The notes below the pieces were generated by a model. That model was not told the origin of the DNA. It did not search any database and saw nothing but the letters and a program-made list of their open reading frames with translations. From Christensenella minuta (GTDB lineage Bacteria; Bacillota; Clostridia; Christensenellales; Christensenellaceae): a stretch of 64,000 nucleotides of DNA. Every line of letters begins with the position of its first letter. Within the stretch, counting starts at the first letter, position 1. The stretch is from NCBI RefSeq assembly GCF_003628755.1, contig NZ_CP029256.1:453585-517584 (forward strand). The letters run 5' to 3'. The position numbers and the translations under genes were made by a program. Below are positions 29,369-61,887 of this stretch, one piece after another.

Positions 29369-29462
29369 ATATGAGTGCCGCAGGCGGTCCGCCGGACCCG
29401 TGATGCGGCCCGAAGCTTTTTGGCTTATTTTATTGGCGCCGGAACCATTAAGGGGGATTTAT

Positions 29463-30392
29463 ATGACGTTGCAGCAACTGCATTATTTGATTACGATTAC
29501 GGAAACGGGTTCTTTGAATAAGGCCGCGGAGGTTCTCTATATATCCCAGCCTTCACTCTCGAGTTCCATCAAGGAACTGGAAAAAGAGGTTGGGATCACG
29601 ATTTTTCACCGCAGCGGAAAGGGCGTAAGCCTAACGAATGACGGGATGGAGTTTTTGCTCTATGCGCGCCAATTGTACCAGCAATATGAATCGATCCTTG
29701 AAAAATATGGAAAGCCCGGGACCCTGAAAAAAAAATTCGGAGTTTCCGCCCAACATTATTCCTTTGCTGTAAAGGCGTTCGTTGAGACGGTGAAAAAGTT
29801 CGACACGTCAAAATATGAATTTGCGATCCGGGAGACGAAGACGCTTGAAATCATAGACGACGTCAATACTCTCAAAAGCGAAATCGGGATACTGTACCTG
29901 AGCGATTTCAACCGTAAGGCCATTGCAAAGCTGCTGAGGGCCAATCATCTGGAGTTCCATCGGCTGATCGATTGCCAGGCCTACGTCTATCTCTGGCGCG
30001 AACATCCATTGGCAAAATGCCGGGCGATCCGCTTTTCGCAGCTAGAGGAATACCCGTGCCTGTCGTTTGAGCAGGGTGACAACGGTTCATTTTACTTTGC
30101 GGAGGAAATACTCAGTACGAACGAATATGCGCGGACGATCAAGGCCAATGACCGTGCGACGATGCTGAACCTGATGATAGGTCTCAACGGCTATACCTTG
30201 TGCTCGGGAATCATTTGCGAGGAATTGAATGGAACGGATTTTGTTACCGTTCCATTTGAGGCAGACGAGCTGAATCCAAACAGCGCAATGGAGATCGGGT
30301 ATGTCGTGAAGAAAAACAGCTTACTCAGCGAAATTGGGAAATTGTATATTGAAGAAACGAAAAATTATCTGGATCAATATCAAATAAGATAA
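29463..30392 (+). CDS. LysR-family regulator next to metY
   Basis: The 309-residue product has the N-terminal winged helix TLQQLHYLITITETGSLNKAA followed by LYISQPSLSSSIKELEKEVG, and a periplasmic-binding-like effector domain (about 90-300). LysR regulators usually bind a pathway metabolite. Here the next gene is the sulfhydrylase metY, with a LysR-type box near -66 of its promoter, so a role in sulfur amino acid control (as for CysB, CysL or MetR) is likely but inferred. GGGGG precedes ATG 29463. Frame upstream to 29214 covers the promoter and is not coding. Confidence 0.88.
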   Translation: MTLQQLHYLITITETGSLNKAAEVLYISQPSLSSSIKELEKEVGITIFHRSGKGVSLTNDGMEFLLYARQLYQQYESILEKYGKPGTLKKKFGVSAQHYSFAVKAFVETVKKFDTSKYEFAIRETKTLEIIDDVNTLKSEIGILYLSDFNRKAIAKLLRANHLEFHRLIDCQAYVYLWREHPLAKCRAIRFSQLEEYPCLSFEQGDNGSFYFAEEILSTNEYARTIKANDRATMLNLMIGLNGYTLCSGIICEELNGTDFVTVPFEADELNPNSAMEIGYVVKKNSLLSEIGKLYIEETKNYLDQYQIR

Positions 30393-30402
30393 CCCATAAA
30401 GC

Positions 30403-30471
30403 ATATAGGCATAATCTATATCTATGTATACCTTTCCTGTATTGGACAGCTTAGGCACGGCGGCGTAAACT
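30403..30471 (+). promoter_or_regulatory. metY promoter with LysR box
   Basis: The perfect dyad ATATAG-n7-CTATAT (30403-30421, T-n11-A type) is centred near 30412. The promoter is TTGGAC (30443-30448), 17 bp and TAAACT (30466-30471), with a start near 30478. The box is thus at about -66, the classic recognition site of LysR activators, and the weak -35 fits activation. Confidence 0.6.
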
Positions 30472-30497
30472 GGAACCGAGGATAGGAGGTAAAGACA

Positions 30498-30605
30498 GTG
30501 AGAAATGCTTTATGGGGAACCGGCTGCTGCTGCGCATGCTATCCCCGCCTGTTAAGCCTTGAGCGAATGTGCCAATGTATCGTGGGTTCCAAACGGGCAC
30601 ACTGA
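30498..30605 (+). CDS. Cysteine-rich leader peptide upstream of metY
   Basis: A 35-codon ORF starting GTG with a strong ribosome binding site (AGGAGG, 30485-30490). It encodes ALWGTGCCCACYPRL in its first half and MCQCIVG in its second, so four of five residues 10-14 are Cys. It starts about 20 nt after the predicted transcript start and ends 40 bp before metY. GGAACC (30516-30521) can pair with GGTTCC (30585-30590), and GTGCC (30569-30573) with GGCAC (30596-30600), bracketing the Cys codons. No poly-U terminator is visible, so control may be by translation or RNA stability. Comparable poly-Cys leader peptides are known from mycobacterial cysteine attenuation. Confidence 0.6.
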   Translation: MRNALWGTGCCCACYPRLLSLERMCQCIVGSKRAH

Positions 30606-30645
30606 AAACGGCGTATAGAAACGATAACATCAGGAGGGATACAAG

Positions 30646-31950
30646 ATGACAAACATTAAAGATTCAAAGAACTGGAGTTTTGAAACCCGGCAACTGCATA
30701 TCGGCCAAGAAGAAGCAGATCCCGCAACGGGGGCAAGAGCTGTCCCGATTTACGCGACAGCTTCCTATGTATTCCATGATTCCCAGCATGCGGCCGACCG
30801 CTTCGGGCTGCGGGATCCCGGTAATATCTACGGAAGGCTGACCAATCCGACGCAGGATATTTTTGAACGGAGAATCGCATCCCTTGAGGGCGGCGCAGCG
30901 GCGCTTGGGCTCGCTTCGGGCGCAGCGGCGATCACTTACGCGCTCAATGCCCTGGCACGCTCGGGCGAGCACATTGTGGCGTCCAAAACGATCTATGGAG
31001 GTACATATAACCTGCTGGAGCATACGCTCCCGCTGTCGGCCGGGATCGCTACGACCTTTGTCGATCCGGAACGGGAGGGAGCGTTTGAAGAAGCAATCAG
31101 GGAAAACACAAAAGCGATTTTTATCGAAACATTGGGCAATCCAAATTCCAATATCATTGATATTGAAGAGGTCGCTGAAATCGCGCACAAGCATAATATC
31201 CCGCTGGTGGTGGATTCCACGTTTGCGACGCCGTATCTCGTAAGGCCGCTTGAATATGGGGCGGATATTGTCATACATTCCGCGACCAAGTTTATTGGAG
31301 GACACGGAACGGCTGTCGGCGGCGTTGTCGTGGACGGAGGACGCTTTGACTGGAAAAGTTCCGCGAAATACCCGTGGATATCGGAGCCGAATCCCAGCTA
31401 TCATGGCGTTTCTTTTGCGGATGCGGCGGGACCGGCGGCTTTTGTGACCTATATCCGCGCGATACTGCTGCGCGACACTGGCGCCACGCTTTCCCCTTTC
31501 CATGCGTTTTTATTCCTGCAGGGGCTGGAGACGCTCTCCCTGCGGGTGGAGCGGCATGTGGAAAACGCGCTCCGCATCGTCGATTACCTCAACGGGCATC
31601 CGCAGGTGGAGGCGGTTCATCATCCGTCTTTGGCCAGCGAACCGAGCTACAAGCTATATCAAAAATATTTCCCCAATGGCGGGGGATCCATCTTTACCTT
31701 TGAAATCAAAGGAACTGCTGAAACGGCCCGGAAATTCATTGATAATCTGGCAATTTTCTCCCTGCTTGCGAATGTGGCCGATGTAAAATCACTGGTGATC
31801 CATCCGGCCAGCACGACTCATTCCCAGCTGACGGAGGAGGAATTACTGGATCAGGGGATCAAACCAAATACGATCCGCCTCTCTATCGGTACGGAAAATG
31901 CCGATGATCTGGTTGCGGCACTGGAAGCGGCGTTTAAAGCGGTTTGGTAA
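30646..31950 (+). CDS. metY: O-acetylhomoserine (thiol)-lyase / sulfhydrylase
   Basis: PLP enzyme of the Cys/Met metabolism family, 434 residues. It forms homocysteine from O-acetylhomoserine and sulfide, and some members also use O-acetylserine. Typical features are ETRQLHIGQEEADPATGARAV, YATASYVF, YGRLTNPTQD, the PLP-lysine in HSATKFIGGHGTAVGG (about K209) and the C-terminal SLVIHPASTTHSQL and IRLSIGTE. AGGAGG lies 8 nt before the ATG. It is probably activated by the upstream LysR protein and modulated by the Cys-rich leader peptide. A strong terminator follows. Confidence 0.95.
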   Translation: MTNIKDSKNWSFETRQLHIGQEEADPATGARAVPIYATASYVFHDSQHAADRFGLRDPGNIYGRLTNPTQDIFERRIASLEGGAAALGLASGAAAITYALNALARSGEHIVASKTIYGGTYNLLEHTLPLSAGIATTFVDPEREGAFEEAIRENTKAIFIETLGNPNSNIIDIEEVAEIAHKHNIPLVVDSTFATPYLVRPLEYGADIVIHSATKFIGGHGTAVGGVVVDGGRFDWKSSAKYPWISEPNPSYHGVSFADAAGPAAFVTYIRAILLRDTGATLSPFHAFLFLQGLETLSLRVERHVENALRIVDYLNGHPQVEAVHHPSLASEPSYKLYQKYFPNGGGSIFTFEIKGTAETARKFIDNLAIFSLLANVADVKSLVIHPASTTHSQLTEEELLDQGIKPNTIRLSIGTENADDLVAALEAAFKAVW

Positions 31951-32983: not shown

Positions 32984-33913
32984 TTATTCGGAAAACATGG
33001 GGGTAGAAAGGTAACGGTCACCGGTATCGGGGAGGAGGACGACGATCACCTTTCCTTTGTTTTCCGGCCGCCTGGCAAGCTCCGCTGCCGCAAACACAGC
33101 CGCGCCGGAAGAAATTCCTACCAGCACGCCTTCTTCCCGTGCGATCTCCCTCCCGGACTCGAAGGCTTCTTCATTTGCGACCGTGAGGATTTCATCATAT
33201 ATCCCGGCATCCAGCGTTTCGGGAATAAACCCGGCACCGATTCCCTGGATCATGTGGGGACCTGCCGTACCCTTGGAAAGCACCGGGGATCCGGCCGGTT
33301 CGACAGCTACCACTTTTATATCGGGATTCCGGGATTTTAAATATTCGCCGACCCCGGAGACCGTACCGCCTGTTCCCACGCCAGCGACAAAAATATCAAC
33401 CCTGCCATCAGTATCGTTCCAGATTTCCGGGCCGGTGGTATTGCGGTGAACGGACGGATTGGCAGGATTTGTAAATTGACTGGGAATGAAGCTGCCGGGA
33501 GTTTCCTTTGCCAGTTCGTTGGCTTTTGCAATTGCGCCCTTCATGCCGAGCGCGCCCTCCGTCAGGACGAGCTGAGCTCCATATGCCTTGAGCAGGTTCC
33601 GGCGCTCGACGCTCATTGTTTCAGGCATTGTAAGAATAATTTTATAGCCCCTTGCAGCCGCGACTGAGGCAAGGCCGATCCCCGTGTTGCCGCTGGTTGG
33701 TTCGATGATAACCGTCCCGGGCTTCAGCAATCCCTTTGCCTCCGCATCGTCGAGCATGGCTTTGGCGATTCGGTCCTTCACGCTGCCGGCAGGATTGAAA
33801 TATTCCAGTTTGCCGAGCAAAGTTGCTTCCAGGCGGTGTTTTTTTACATAATTGTTCAACCCGAGCAACGGCGTACCGCCGATCAAATCCGTAATTTTAT
33901 CGTATATTTTCAT
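32984..33913 (-). CDS. cysK: Cysteine synthase A (O-acetylserine sulfhydrylase)
   Basis: PLP enzyme joining sulfide to O-acetylserine to make cysteine, 309 residues. Motifs: [12 protein letters not shown], the PLP lysine in [13 protein letters not shown] (about K46), [72 protein letters not shown] and [12 protein letters not shown]. It starts at 33913 with AAAGGAG. Its leader encodes a small peptide with two adjacent cysteines. With metY and the isc genes it forms a sulfur island. Confidence 0.96.
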
Positions 33914-33970: not shown

Positions 33971-34012
33971 CTATAAGCGGCAACATCGTTGGCGTATACC
34001 TGTTTTCTCCAT
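33971..34012 (-). CDS. Cys-Cys leader peptide upstream of cysK
   Basis: A 13-residue ORF, MEKTGIRQRCCRL, with AAGGAGAG just upstream. It lies within the cysK leader and ends 57 bp before the cysK start. A TTGCC/GGCAA hairpin begins at the second Cys codon. It pairs conceptually with the CCCAC leader of metY: both precede cysteine or sulfide assimilation genes and both carry adjacent Cys codons. Confidence 0.5.
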   Translation of the reverse strand: MEKTGIRQRCCRL

Positions 34013-34047
34013 TATGGCTCTCCTTATTCTTTTTATAAACGCAATAA

Positions 34048-34086
34048 CCTATAAAACATATTAATTATATAGGAATTATTGTACAA
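34048..34086 (-). promoter_or_regulatory. cysK promoter with CCTATA/TATAGG dyad
   Basis: On the minus strand TTGTAC (34081-34086), 17-bp spacer and TAATAT (34058-34063). The plus-strand dyad CCTATA-n14-TATAGG (34048-34073) covers the -10 and most of the spacer. It shares ATAACCTAT with the rrf2 promoter. Confidence 0.55.
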
Positions 34087-60193: not shown

Positions 60194-60221
60194 TAGCAAT
60201 TATAAATAGAAAACCAGTGAT

Positions 60222-60476
60222 TCAGAGGAGTAACCGGGAATACCGCTTTTAAGAGAGCAATGGGTGGTGAGATCATTGCAGCACAGGATTTTCGGTGAAT
60301 GGACTGATGAGGGCAGGGAGAACAACGAAAGTTTAGTAATACCTGACGGAATTTCCAGCCGTTACCATGGAAACACAATTGGTTGATTGTGGCAGAGAGG
60401 GCGCTTTGCGCCAATCCGGGTGGCACCGCAGAAGTTAAGACTTTTGTCCCAGAAGTTGGGACAAAAGTCTTTTTTG
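60222..60476 (+). promoter_or_regulatory. T-box riboswitch, probably tRNA-Trp specific
   Basis: The T-box core CCGGGTGGCACCGC (about 60416-60429) is followed by a terminator GACTTTTGTCCC-n7-GGGACAAAAGTC-TTTTTT (60439-60475). Stem I has the usual GNTG-rich start and AGAGAGCAATGGGTGGTGAGA. The specifier loop near GGTGAATGGACTG places TGG (60300-60302) as the specifier codon, matching tryptophan and the downstream TrpB-like enzyme. Uncharged tRNA-Trp should stabilise the antiterminator. Confidence 0.9.
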
Positions 60477-60513: not shown

Positions 60514-61887
60514 ATGGTAAAGATTCCGCACAGACTCTATTTAAACGAAGACGAGATGCCGAAGCAGTGGTATAATATGCGCGCAGATATGAAAGAATTG
60601 CCTGCGCCGATGATGAATCCGGCGACAATGCAGCCGGCAACGGAAGAGGACCTCTACCCGGTGTTCTGCAAAAAGCTGGCGCACCAGGAACTGGATAACG
60701 AGACGAGGTATGTGGATATCCCGGACGAAGTGCTCGAGATGTACAAAATTTACCGCCCGTCGCCGCTGATCCGCGCGTTCAATCTGGAAAAAGCGCTTGA
60801 TACGCCCGCAAAAATCTATTACAAGTTCGAGGGAAACAATACCTCAGGCAGCCATAAGCTCAATTCTGCGATCGCACAGGCCTATTATGCAAAGGATCAG
60901 GGACTGAAAGGCCTTACGACCGAGACGGGAGCAGGCCAGTGGGGGACTGCACTGGCGGAAGCATGCTCTTATTTTGGGCTTCCGCTTACGGTATTCATGG
61001 TGAAGGTCTCTTACCAGCAAAAACCCTTCCGCAAAGCGGTGATGCAGACGTTTGACGCAGACGTGATCGCCAGCCCGAGCAATACGACGGAAATTGGCCG
61101 CAAAATATTGGCGGAGAACCCGAATACCTCGGGCAGTCTCGGCTGCGCGATTTCCGAAGCGGTGGAAAAAGCGGTCTCCACGGAAGGCTACCGCTATGTG
61201 CTTGGATCGGTGCTCAATCAGGTGCTGCTTCATCAGTCGATCATTGGCCTTGAATCCAAGCTCGCAATGGAAAAGCTGGACGAGTATCCGGATGTCGTGA
61301 TTGGCTGTGCGGGCGGCGGATCAAACCTGGGCGGCCTGATCGCGCCCTTTATGCAGGACAAGCTGACCGGAAAAGCGGATCCGCGGATCGTTGCGGTGGA
61401 ACCGGCTTCGTGCCCGTCCTTTACGCGCGGGAAATACGCGTACGATTTCTGCGATACGGGCAAAATTACGCCAATGGCAAAAATGTATACGCTGGGCAGC
61501 GGATTCATTCCTTCCGCGAACCATGCGGGCGGCCTGCGCTATCACGGAATGTCGCCGATCCTGTCCAAATTGTATCACGACAAATATATGGAAGCGGTCT
61601 CTGTTGAACAAAGCAAGGTGTTTGAGGCGGCGGTACTATTTGCCAAAAAGGAAACGATCCTGCCCGCGCCGGAATCCGCGCATGCGATCCGCGCGGCAAT
61701 CGATGAAGCGCTCCGCTGCAAGGAGGCGGGAGAGCAGAAAACGATCCTGTTTGGCCTTACGGGGACGGGTTATTTCGATATGACGGCGTATGAATCCTAT
61801 CATGATGGGAAAATGAACGATTATATCCCAACAGATGAAGAACTGCAAAAAGGGTTTGACAGCCTGCCGGAAGTCCCGGAGAAATAA
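60514..61887 (+). CDS. trpB: Tryptophan synthase beta-like protein TrpB2
   Basis: PLP enzyme converting indole and serine to tryptophan, 457 residues. The longer N-terminus (VKIPHRLYLNEDEMPKQWYN), the PLP-lysine in NNTSGSHKLNSAIAQAYY (about K110), TTETGAGQWGTALAEAC, CAGGGSNLGG and GFIPSANHAGGLRYHG mark the TrpB2 subfamily, which lacks the TrpA interface. No trpA or other trp gene is near. It is controlled by a Trp T-box, so it probably salvages indole. AAGGGAG precedes the ATG. Confidence 0.94.
   Translation: MVKIPHRLYLNEDEMPKQWYNMRADMKELPAPMMNPATMQPATEEDLYPVFCKKLAHQELDNETRYVDIPDEVLEMYKIYRPSPLIRAFNLEKALDTPAKIYYKFEGNNTSGSHKLNSAIAQAYYAKDQGLKGLTTETGAGQWGTALAEACSYFGLPLTVFMVKVSYQQKPFRKAVMQTFDADVIASPSNTTEIGRKILAENPNTSGSLGCAISEAVEKAVSTEGYRYVLGSVLNQVLLHQSIIGLESKLAMEKLDEYPDVVIGCAGGGSNLGGLIAPFMQDKLTGKADPRIVAVEPASCPSFTRGKYAYDFCDTGKITPMAKMYTLGSGFIPSANHAGGLRYHGMSPILSKLYHDKYMEAVSVEQSKVFEAAVLFAKKETILPAPESAHAIRAAIDEALRCKEAGEQKTILFGLTGTGYFDMTAYESYHDGKMNDYIPTDEELQKGFDSLPEVPEK

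Follow-up and report, generated by a model that had tools for sequence, protein, structure and literature searches.

The his and trp attenuation leaders of enterobacteria (for his, see also the available part of PMC11805395) resemble the locus described here in having a short leader open reading frame (ORF), led by a Shine-Dalgarno (SD) sequence, that contains codons for the product of the pathway. In contrast to those leaders with their codon runs, the present locus and its relatives often have one or two sensing codons, each standing behind a CGA, and no terminator is found at the locus itself, although 12 relatives possess both a terminator and a competing strand. Leader ORFs with Cys runs lie ahead of the cys operons of Mycobacterium and Propionibacterium acnes and of cbs in Bifidobacterium longum (PMC1262725, available part); there, likewise, Cys codons precede cysteine genes and conserved terminator hairpins are lacking. 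Those Cys runs are near the stop codon and the available part of the paper does not mention a coupling to CGA, whereas in the present family metY leaders mainly use AUG, and a run is absent from most members. Similarly, uORFC-8-2 upstream of cysS in Rhodobacterales has two tandem Cys codons, and ribosome-mediated attenuation was proposed for it (PMC8632094, available part); it differs in the bacterial group, in the gene, and in always having a terminator, and CGA goes unmentioned in that part of the source. Tests of slow codons in the Salmonella his leader revealed that CGA slows leader translation and that neighboring codons matter (PMC4046918, available part), but these were laboratory constructs, and CGA-AUG and CGA-UGU are not among the codon pairs described in that part. 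Arrest peptides of the TnaC type have a conserved C-terminal block and a stop codon right after a conserved residue, as does part of one subfamily of the present leaders, NFRFGRM.

In the bacterial group of the host, amino acid control of this sort is usually exerted by T-boxes and riboswitches. The main text of a structured-RNA survey (PMC11109978) contains no mention of metY, homoserine, homocysteine, or cysteine. Our literature search, with most subscription papers and all preprints outside its scope, returned no description of a CGA-AUG leader or of a metY or cysK leader peptide in Clostridia. Here, we describe leader ORFs in front of both genes in a 64,000-nucleotide stretch (the window) of the single 2.97-Mb contig of Christensenella minuta.

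Results

A leader ORF in front of metY

The metY gene of the window (product scoring 610 bits against TIGR01326, cut-off 495) is preceded by an SD-led ORF whose stop codon lies 40 bases from it (Table 1). A first-pass annotation had reported this ORF, its own AGGAGG, and six Cys residues with four of them in five positions, and all of these features were confirmed. The Cys codons are numbers 10, 11, 12, 14, 25, and 27. Among 23,435 open 34-codon frames simulated with a first-order Markov model of the leader region, 0.085% contained at least six Cys and a single frame (0.004%) contained at least four Cys in five codons. The annotation had overlooked the CGA-AUG that sits directly 5' of the CQC motif. 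One promoter-like site was found upstream of the leader versus 0.6 expected in shuffles, and this region is conserved in the related genome G003. A gene for a LysR-type regulator, possibly an additional regulator, lies directly upstream of the leader on the same strand (29457-30392).

Table 1. Features of the metY and cysK leader regions (window coordinates)
Feature	Position	Strand	Support or comment
Promoter-like site TGGACA-17-TAAACT, for leader and metY	30443..30471	+	9/12 matches
Shine-Dalgarno AGGAGG of metY leader ORF	30484..30489	+	Kept in G003; eight bases upstream of start
metY leader ORF, 35 codons, GTG start, VRNALWGTGCCCACYPRLLSLERMCQCIVGSKRAH	30498..30605	+	Leaders of relatives
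Variable Cys site, codons 10-14, TGC TGC TGC GCA TGC	30525..30539	+	Run not retained in G003
Proposed sensing core CGA ATG TGC CAA TGT (R-M-C-Q-C)	30564..30578	+	CGAATG invariant in four aligned same-genus sequences; codon statistics
Shine-Dalgarno AGGAGG of metY	30632..30637	+	Sequence
metY, O-acetylhomoserine/O-acetylserine sulfhydrylase	30646..31950	+	PF01053; TIGR01326
cysK, cysteine synthase A	32984..33913	-	TIGR01139, 457.9 bits, cut-off 351
cysK leader ORF MEKTGIRQRCCRL, SD-led	33971..34012	-	G003 counterpart MKKLFLHQRCCRGQTKA
CGA TGT TGC core of cysK leader	33980..33988	-	Kept in G003
Shine-Dalgarno AAGGAG of cysK leader	34020..34025	-	Sequence

The reported absence of a terminator was also borne out, with no intrinsic terminator found in 30380-30720 (0.4 expected in shuffles). 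Two nested complementary pairs, said to bracket the Cys codons, do exist as strings (GGAACC at 30516-30521 with GGTTCC at 30585-30590; GTGCC at 30569-30573 with GGCAC at 30596-30600), but they carry no weight because the leader RNA folded no better than shuffled sequences (-45.1 kcal/mol; shuffle mean -45.8 kcal/mol; z 0.17; an equal or better fold in 107/200 shuffles). This ordinary fold and the loss of the strings in G003 led us to reject the pairs as a switch. We also rejected a candidate anti-SD in the leader (TATCCCCGCCTG versus CAGGAGGGATA) that looked promising by eye and is partly kept in G003; with a ribosome on CGA-AUG the predicted exposure of the metY SD barely changed, from 0.52 to 0.60 in the window and from 0.49 to 0.61 in G003, and with a ribosome at the leader stop the values were 0.71 and 0.53, respectively. 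Rfam yielded no match above the gathering score over the window metY leader (two matches were at chance level) and, in the loci of 15 relatives, only a c-di-GMP-I riboswitch in L131, located outside the leader. The leader peptides of the window and L022 matched zero NCBIfam families, a search in which HMMER is weak with queries so short.

Conservation in relatives

A DNA search of 61 genomes with the leader region detected, outside the genome itself, only G003 (76% identity over 317 bases), the MetY of which is 92% identical to that of the window. The G003 leader ORF, VGIKFLSGNRPVCHRAPYSRLLSLNRMCRCSL, has PVCHRAP in place of CCCAC and retains LLSLxRMCxC, with a core that reads CGA-ATG-TGC-CGA-TGT. 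Two more genomes of the genus, aligned by metY homology alone, retain CGAATG at the corresponding position, within MDWHKVQKSRSARERMRRCCNGKNRK and MYRRKVQKSRSAKQRMWRCCKGEKQR; thus, this string is invariant across four aligned same-genus sequences that were selected by homology alone. The loss of the ORF from close relatives, considered in the first-pass annotation, was not what we observed, as CGA-AUG leaders are present in four of six same-genus genomes (G000, G002, G003, and G004); no such metY leader was seen in G001 or G005. Alignment of the leaders revealed a conserved ORF and CGA-AUG, whereas the CCCAC run is replaced in G003. In more distant relatives even less is retained, as in MTELLIALVRKNFRFGRMCCRCCR and MENQKRYFEKLVRANFRFGRM-stop.

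Cys codons occur 4 to 13 codons before R-M in L040, L066, L145, L146, and L150 (MetY 82-86% identical), compared with 9 to 13 in the window, and the L065 leader has no Cys codon in the stretch ahead of R-M. The Cys run therefore looks like a variable Cys site. Several family members end in FGRM-stop without any Cys, which indicates that the residue shared by metY leaders is Met rather than Cys alone. A comparison with the poly-Cys leaders of actinobacteria, offered in the annotation, did not hold; CCCAC is not close to the stop codon and is not kept in G003, and several family members contain no Cys at all. The accompanying proposal of a sensor of Cys-tRNA charging survived in part. Ribosome-based sensing is the best reading because a conserved SD-led metY leader ORF recurrently carries sulfur amino acid codons, but it is CGA-AUG that is kept rather than CCCAC.

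Eight close leaders, when aligned, had a mean column identity of 47%, and beyond CGAATGT there was no invariant stretch over two columns; these members were picked for carrying CGA-AUG, so the invariance of CGAATGT is partly by selection. The other invariant columns, single or in pairs, fall in the metY SD and start codon. By a hand tally, the leader carriers are genomes of roughly thirty numbered families, with Massiliimalia massiliensis (L080), Oribacterium sp. NK2B42 (L096), and Ruminococcaceae bacterium YAD3003 (L135) among those named. First scans of named Parabacteroides, Bacteroides, Treponema, Spirochaetales, and Synergistaceae metY loci (L086, L088 with just 155 bases upstream available, L089, L105, L112, L121, L130, and L144) disclosed no leader. 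In L292 and L294, the metY leaders have an exceptionally high Met and Cys content (e.g., MSHGNTWPMNMYEMADSMCCMQDMMCFSCTPCSEMRM) and look like classical multi-codon versions.

Arg codon choice before Met and Cys codons

We compiled 216 non-redundant metY upstream regions, counting that of the window and taking at most 330 bases from each; they contained 330 SD-led short ORFs, listed whether or not they bore CGA. The sources were 158 placed loci, less 11 with identity below 55% or fewer than 150 bases upstream, and 80 fetched regions, less one that was 81 bases long; clustering at 90% reduced the resulting 226 to 216. The fetched regions were hand-picked from the matches listed, and most genomes already seen were omitted, which would lower the leader count if anything.

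In these short ORFs, CGA accounted for 83 of the 97 Arg codons before AUG and for 30 of 43 before Cys codons, divided into 30/36 before UGU and 0/7 before UGC. Its share was 6/32 before stop codons and 65/577 before other sense codons, with no residue above one in four. The Fisher p values versus other codons (5e-50 for AUG and 6e-21 for UGU) treat related sequences as independent and therefore serve only as effect sizes. The pattern was similar with strict SD and ATG starts (60/65 before AUG, 24/28 before UGU, and 20/153 before other codons) and without any SD requirement (86/108, 30/38, and 93/807, respectively); the reverse strand gave 0 CGA of 4. Bare CGAATG, with no ORF requirement, was present in 100 of the 216 regions, compared with 10 to 21 for each of its five synonyms. 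Among the Arg codons of the window's 58 longest ORFs, CGA accounts for 49 of 1079 overall and for 1 of the 22 before AUG. With CGA dominant before AUG and UGU and uncommon elsewhere, it is the codon that is retained in the leaders and not merely the amino acid.

An in-frame CGA-AUG leader was identified in 82 of the 216 metY regions; the other 134 had none by the same criterion, and no CGA-Met/Cys leader was found for 15 of the 32 most similar metY genes (78% or more). The possibility that the window ORF is a chance frame without function, its Cys run an accident of GC-rich sequence, draws on this absence from over half of the metY regions, on the failure of G003 to keep CCCAC, and on the ordinary leader fold. 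We find it hardly credible, however, in view of the recurrence of the in-frame core, the codon statistics of the family, and the cysK leader described below, which repeats the design in the same window. Cys and Met make up 8.0% and 7.0% of leader ORF residues compared with 3.3% and 1.9% in other SD-led short ORFs, an enrichment that is partly circular since leaders were selected by CGA-Met/Cys.

Some further counts were obtained with a set in which several minus-strand loci (31/158) lay on the wrong strand and their leaders were missed, hereafter the partly misoriented set. UGN follows AUG in 56 of 84 CGA-AUG leaders of this set, stops included, a feature that a pure Met sensor does not explain; the Cys codons at this position, in the same partly misoriented set, were 20 UGC and 17 UGU. 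The UG is kept even where it gives a stop or Trp codon, and CGAATGTG was the commonest 8-mer in the first 152 regions, occurring in 33 of them (partly misoriented set). These observations are what would be expected if CGAAUGUG were an RNA-level element, that is, a pairing or protein site merely overlapping a short ORF. Yet CGAATG was in frame with SD-led short ORFs in 78 of 101 copies and CGATGT in 24 of 33 (partly misoriented set), compared with 7/15 for CGTATG, 2/12 for CGCATG, 0/9 for CGGATG, 2/20 for AGAATG, 3/26 for AGGATG, and 0/10 for CGATGC. In addition, a complementary CATTCG downstream, rejected as a pairing partner, was present in only 2 of 58 regions of the partly misoriented set, Rfam matched nothing over the metY leaders, and the cysK leaders use another string, CGATGT. 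We thus regard an RNA-level element as quite improbable.

A second leader in front of cysK

The cysK gene of the window, on the opposite strand, has its own SD-led leader ORF that the first-pass annotation overlooked. Its G003 counterpart keeps CAA-CGA-TGT-TGC-CGC, with the remainder changed. To assemble a comparable set, for which 40 cysK regions had been hand-picked as not adjoining metY, 13 of 99 regions that lay behind metY were dropped and short ones and near-duplicates were removed, leaving 81 cysK regions not directly behind metY, the window included. An SD-led short ORF with CGA-UGU (12) or CGA-AUG (1) occurs in 13 of these 81 regions, including two, L443 and L482, that lie 180 to 311 bases upstream and may be chance matches. 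The Arg codon was CGA in 12/17 cases before UGU, 0/5 before UGC, 1/4 before AUG, and 8/112 before the remaining codons. Several of these leaders end in R-C-stop (MIIVKHERC, MLRKYFIKRC, and MMYLPNEKRC). As a bare string, CGATGT was found in 13 of the 81 regions, its synonyms in 3 to 9, and CGAATG in 4, an excess over synonyms less clear than that of CGAATG before metY (100 versus 10-21). Counted as codon pairs, AUG:UGU after CGA was 83:30 for metY and 1:12 for cysK (p 6e-6). With AUG dominant before metY and UGU before cysK, the identity of the codon behind CGA corresponds to what the downstream gene produces.

Just behind the -10 element of cysK is an inverted repeat, CCTATATAATTAATATGTTTTATAGG (34048-34073, minus strand), that is nearly kept in G003 and resembles a string before metY in L012 and L013. 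It looks like a repressor operator of the Rrf2/CymR type. Since this operator-like repeat accompanies the CGA-UGU leader, cysK may be under double control.

A CGA-independent search and a shared peptide block

The pattern N-(F/Y)-(R/S)-x-G-(R/S)-M, which is tied neither to CGA nor to metY, was searched in 391 genomes of the class and gave 29 matches, compared with 20 for the reversed pattern. Fifteen were in short metY leaders, two in leaders of genes for NlpA-type lipoproteins, and 12 elsewhere; CGA was used in 17/17 of the leader matches versus 1/12 of the remainder. An earlier, narrower pattern had produced six matches in 291 genomes (one when reversed), five of them in metY leaders.

NlpA-type CGA-AUG leaders were found at three of 30 loci (L192, L201, which is the same as L360, and L362), in a scan with negatives valid for plus-strand loci only. 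The NlpA assignment is by PF03180 for L201 and by sequence only for L192. AUG after CGA thus occurs mainly in metY leaders and in these three NlpA-type leaders, and UGU in cysK leaders. The best Pfam stretch of the L201 and L362 proteins, profile positions 99-234, lies close to the protein start, and the matches to L201 in several other genomes fall into two pieces with the order swapped; the arrangement suggests that this NlpA-type protein may be circularly permuted.

The block N-(F/W/Y)-R-x-G-R-M, which is NFRFGRM-like, was present with its other codons varied in 36 of 84 CGA-AUG leaders of the partly misoriented set, and decoding alone needs no such peptide. The Arg three codons earlier in these 36 leaders uses all six Arg codons (CGA 5/36), and 17 of 81 CGA-AUG sites end exactly at R-M-stop. 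Such features are at home in the main rival to our reading, a ligand-induced arrest peptide resembling TnaC, in which a nascent chain ending in FRFGRM or LLSLxRMC would stall the ribosome when Met, Cys, or S-adenosylmethionine is abundant and CGA would merely add delay. Unlike TnaC, however, 48 of the 84 leaders (partly misoriented set) lack the block and share only R-M, the cysK leaders share only R-C, the block is absent from the window, and conservation is at the codon level. An arrest peptide also leaves unexplained both the use of CGA at 83 of 97 Arg positions and the presence of UGU, never UGC, after CGA, and the residue following CGA varies with the downstream gene. We judge this rival to be unlikely, while ranking it ahead of the other alternatives.

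Type B leaders

In 12 metY leaders from other genomes, termed type B, CTCCCGGGCA (ATCCCGGACA in L250) lies no more than a few bases behind CGA-AUG, and approximately 70 to 95 bases further a TGCCCGGGAG-like strand begins a terminator. By our criterion, a terminator is present in 12/12 type B leaders and in 7/72 leaders outside type B in the partly misoriented set. The left arm of the terminator can alternatively pair with the strand behind CGA-AUG, with 9 or 10 of 10 positions matching in 11 of the 12 (for L131, the script picked a nearby site instead of the distant competing partner). At the family level, type B was compared through an alignment of 11/12 loci. L250 exhibits one compensatory change in the competing helix and L018 keeps one pair through G-U, which makes a thin case for this putative helix. 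By its anatomy, as read from sequence, type B is an attenuator, having the terminator and competing antiterminator that typify his and trp leaders and that are absent from the window.

Judging by the usual ribosome footprint, a ribosome halted on UGU-UGU before CGA-AUG would leave the first strand free, and one halted on AUG would cover about four of its ten bases. Since halting at CGA-AUG would thus hide some of the competing strand, control in type B could have either sign. In five type B leaders (L045, L113, L132, L133, and L287), the leader SD is complementary to a segment toward the end of that leader ORF (e.g., AAAGGAGGCGCA and TGCGCCTC), a second possible switch helix according to inspection by eye and single folds. 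L046 contains a further type-B-like leader, MCCRM..SRA.

Discussion

In our judgment, the metY leader ORF is probably a translated regulatory leader peptide gene in which the CGA-Met/Cys codons sense the charging of Met-tRNA and Cys-tRNA. It would belong to a leader family that extends across Clostridia in front of sulfur amino acid genes. The working part would be the codon string CGA-AUG-UGC, represented in relatives mostly by CGA-AUG-UGN and often by CGA-UGU as well. A ribosome translating the leader would slow at CGA, read by tRNA-Arg(ACG) through I-A wobble, and the codon behind it, AUG or UGU, would be read slowly unless Met-tRNA or Cys-tRNA were plentiful. The dwell time of the ribosome at this site would set expression of the downstream gene. 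Translation of the leader, slowing, the sensed molecule, and the direction of control are features that we infer. For the window, with its ordinary fold and no terminator, the candidate outputs are metY translation, Rho, and mRNA stability.

The decoding background offers a possible rationale for CGA. Among the 49 tRNA genes of the genome (the tRNA set of one genome), the Arg anticodons are ACG, CCG, CCT, and TCT with no TCG, so CGA is readable only by tRNA-Arg(ACG). In other bacteria the first anticodon base of this tRNA is inosine, and CGA would therefore be read through a poor I-A wobble. In yeast, inhibitory codon pairs reportedly include cases in which CGA in the P-site hinders decoding of the next codon; by analogy, a similar hindrance may apply in the metY and cysK leaders.

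According to the available part of PMC4046918, CGA is among the slow codons of the Salmonella his leader in several contexts, AGG and not CGA is the slowest sense codon, and tRNAs whose anticodon starts with G decode NNU more poorly than NNC; the presence of UGU rather than UGC after CGA fits the last of these points. The slowing by CGA in several contexts would also suit a mere timing codon that holds the ribosome near the polymerase and couples translation to transcription, with amino acid sensing located elsewhere, and type B leaders do need the ribosome to be rightly placed when the terminator forms. Such a role, however, requires neither a position immediately before Met or Cys nor a change from Met at metY to Cys at cysK, and we consider it very unlikely.

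Beyond the sensing of tRNA charging at metY, CGA plus a sensed codon may constitute a modular amino acid gauge, a generalization that we hold to be evenly balanced between true and false. A single AUG or UGU would then be as telling as a run of codons, the codon after CGA would name the amino acid whose synthesis or uptake the downstream gene serves (Met in the case of metY and the NlpA-type genes, Cys in that of cysK), and the output could be a terminator or something else. We file the metY and cysK leaders as leader-peptide control of a new form, set apart from the poly-Cys and arrest-peptide families because the defining features of those families are lacking or not settled here.

The genome also uses tRNA-sensing RNA, because a T-box leader (60208-60454, 98.3 bits) precedes a gene at 60514-61887 whose product we take to be a TrpB-type tryptophan synthase beta chain.

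To our knowledge, slowing by codon pairs is known mainly from artificial constructs. If our reading of the leaders is true, a large bacterial group controls Met and Cys genes by translation where riboswitches and T-boxes would be expected, and natural selection uses an inhibitory codon context, CGA before the sensed codon, as a sensor. The family would then provide some ninety natural leaders (82 for metY and 13 for cysK) with a built-in control for specificity, Met before metY and Cys before cysK.
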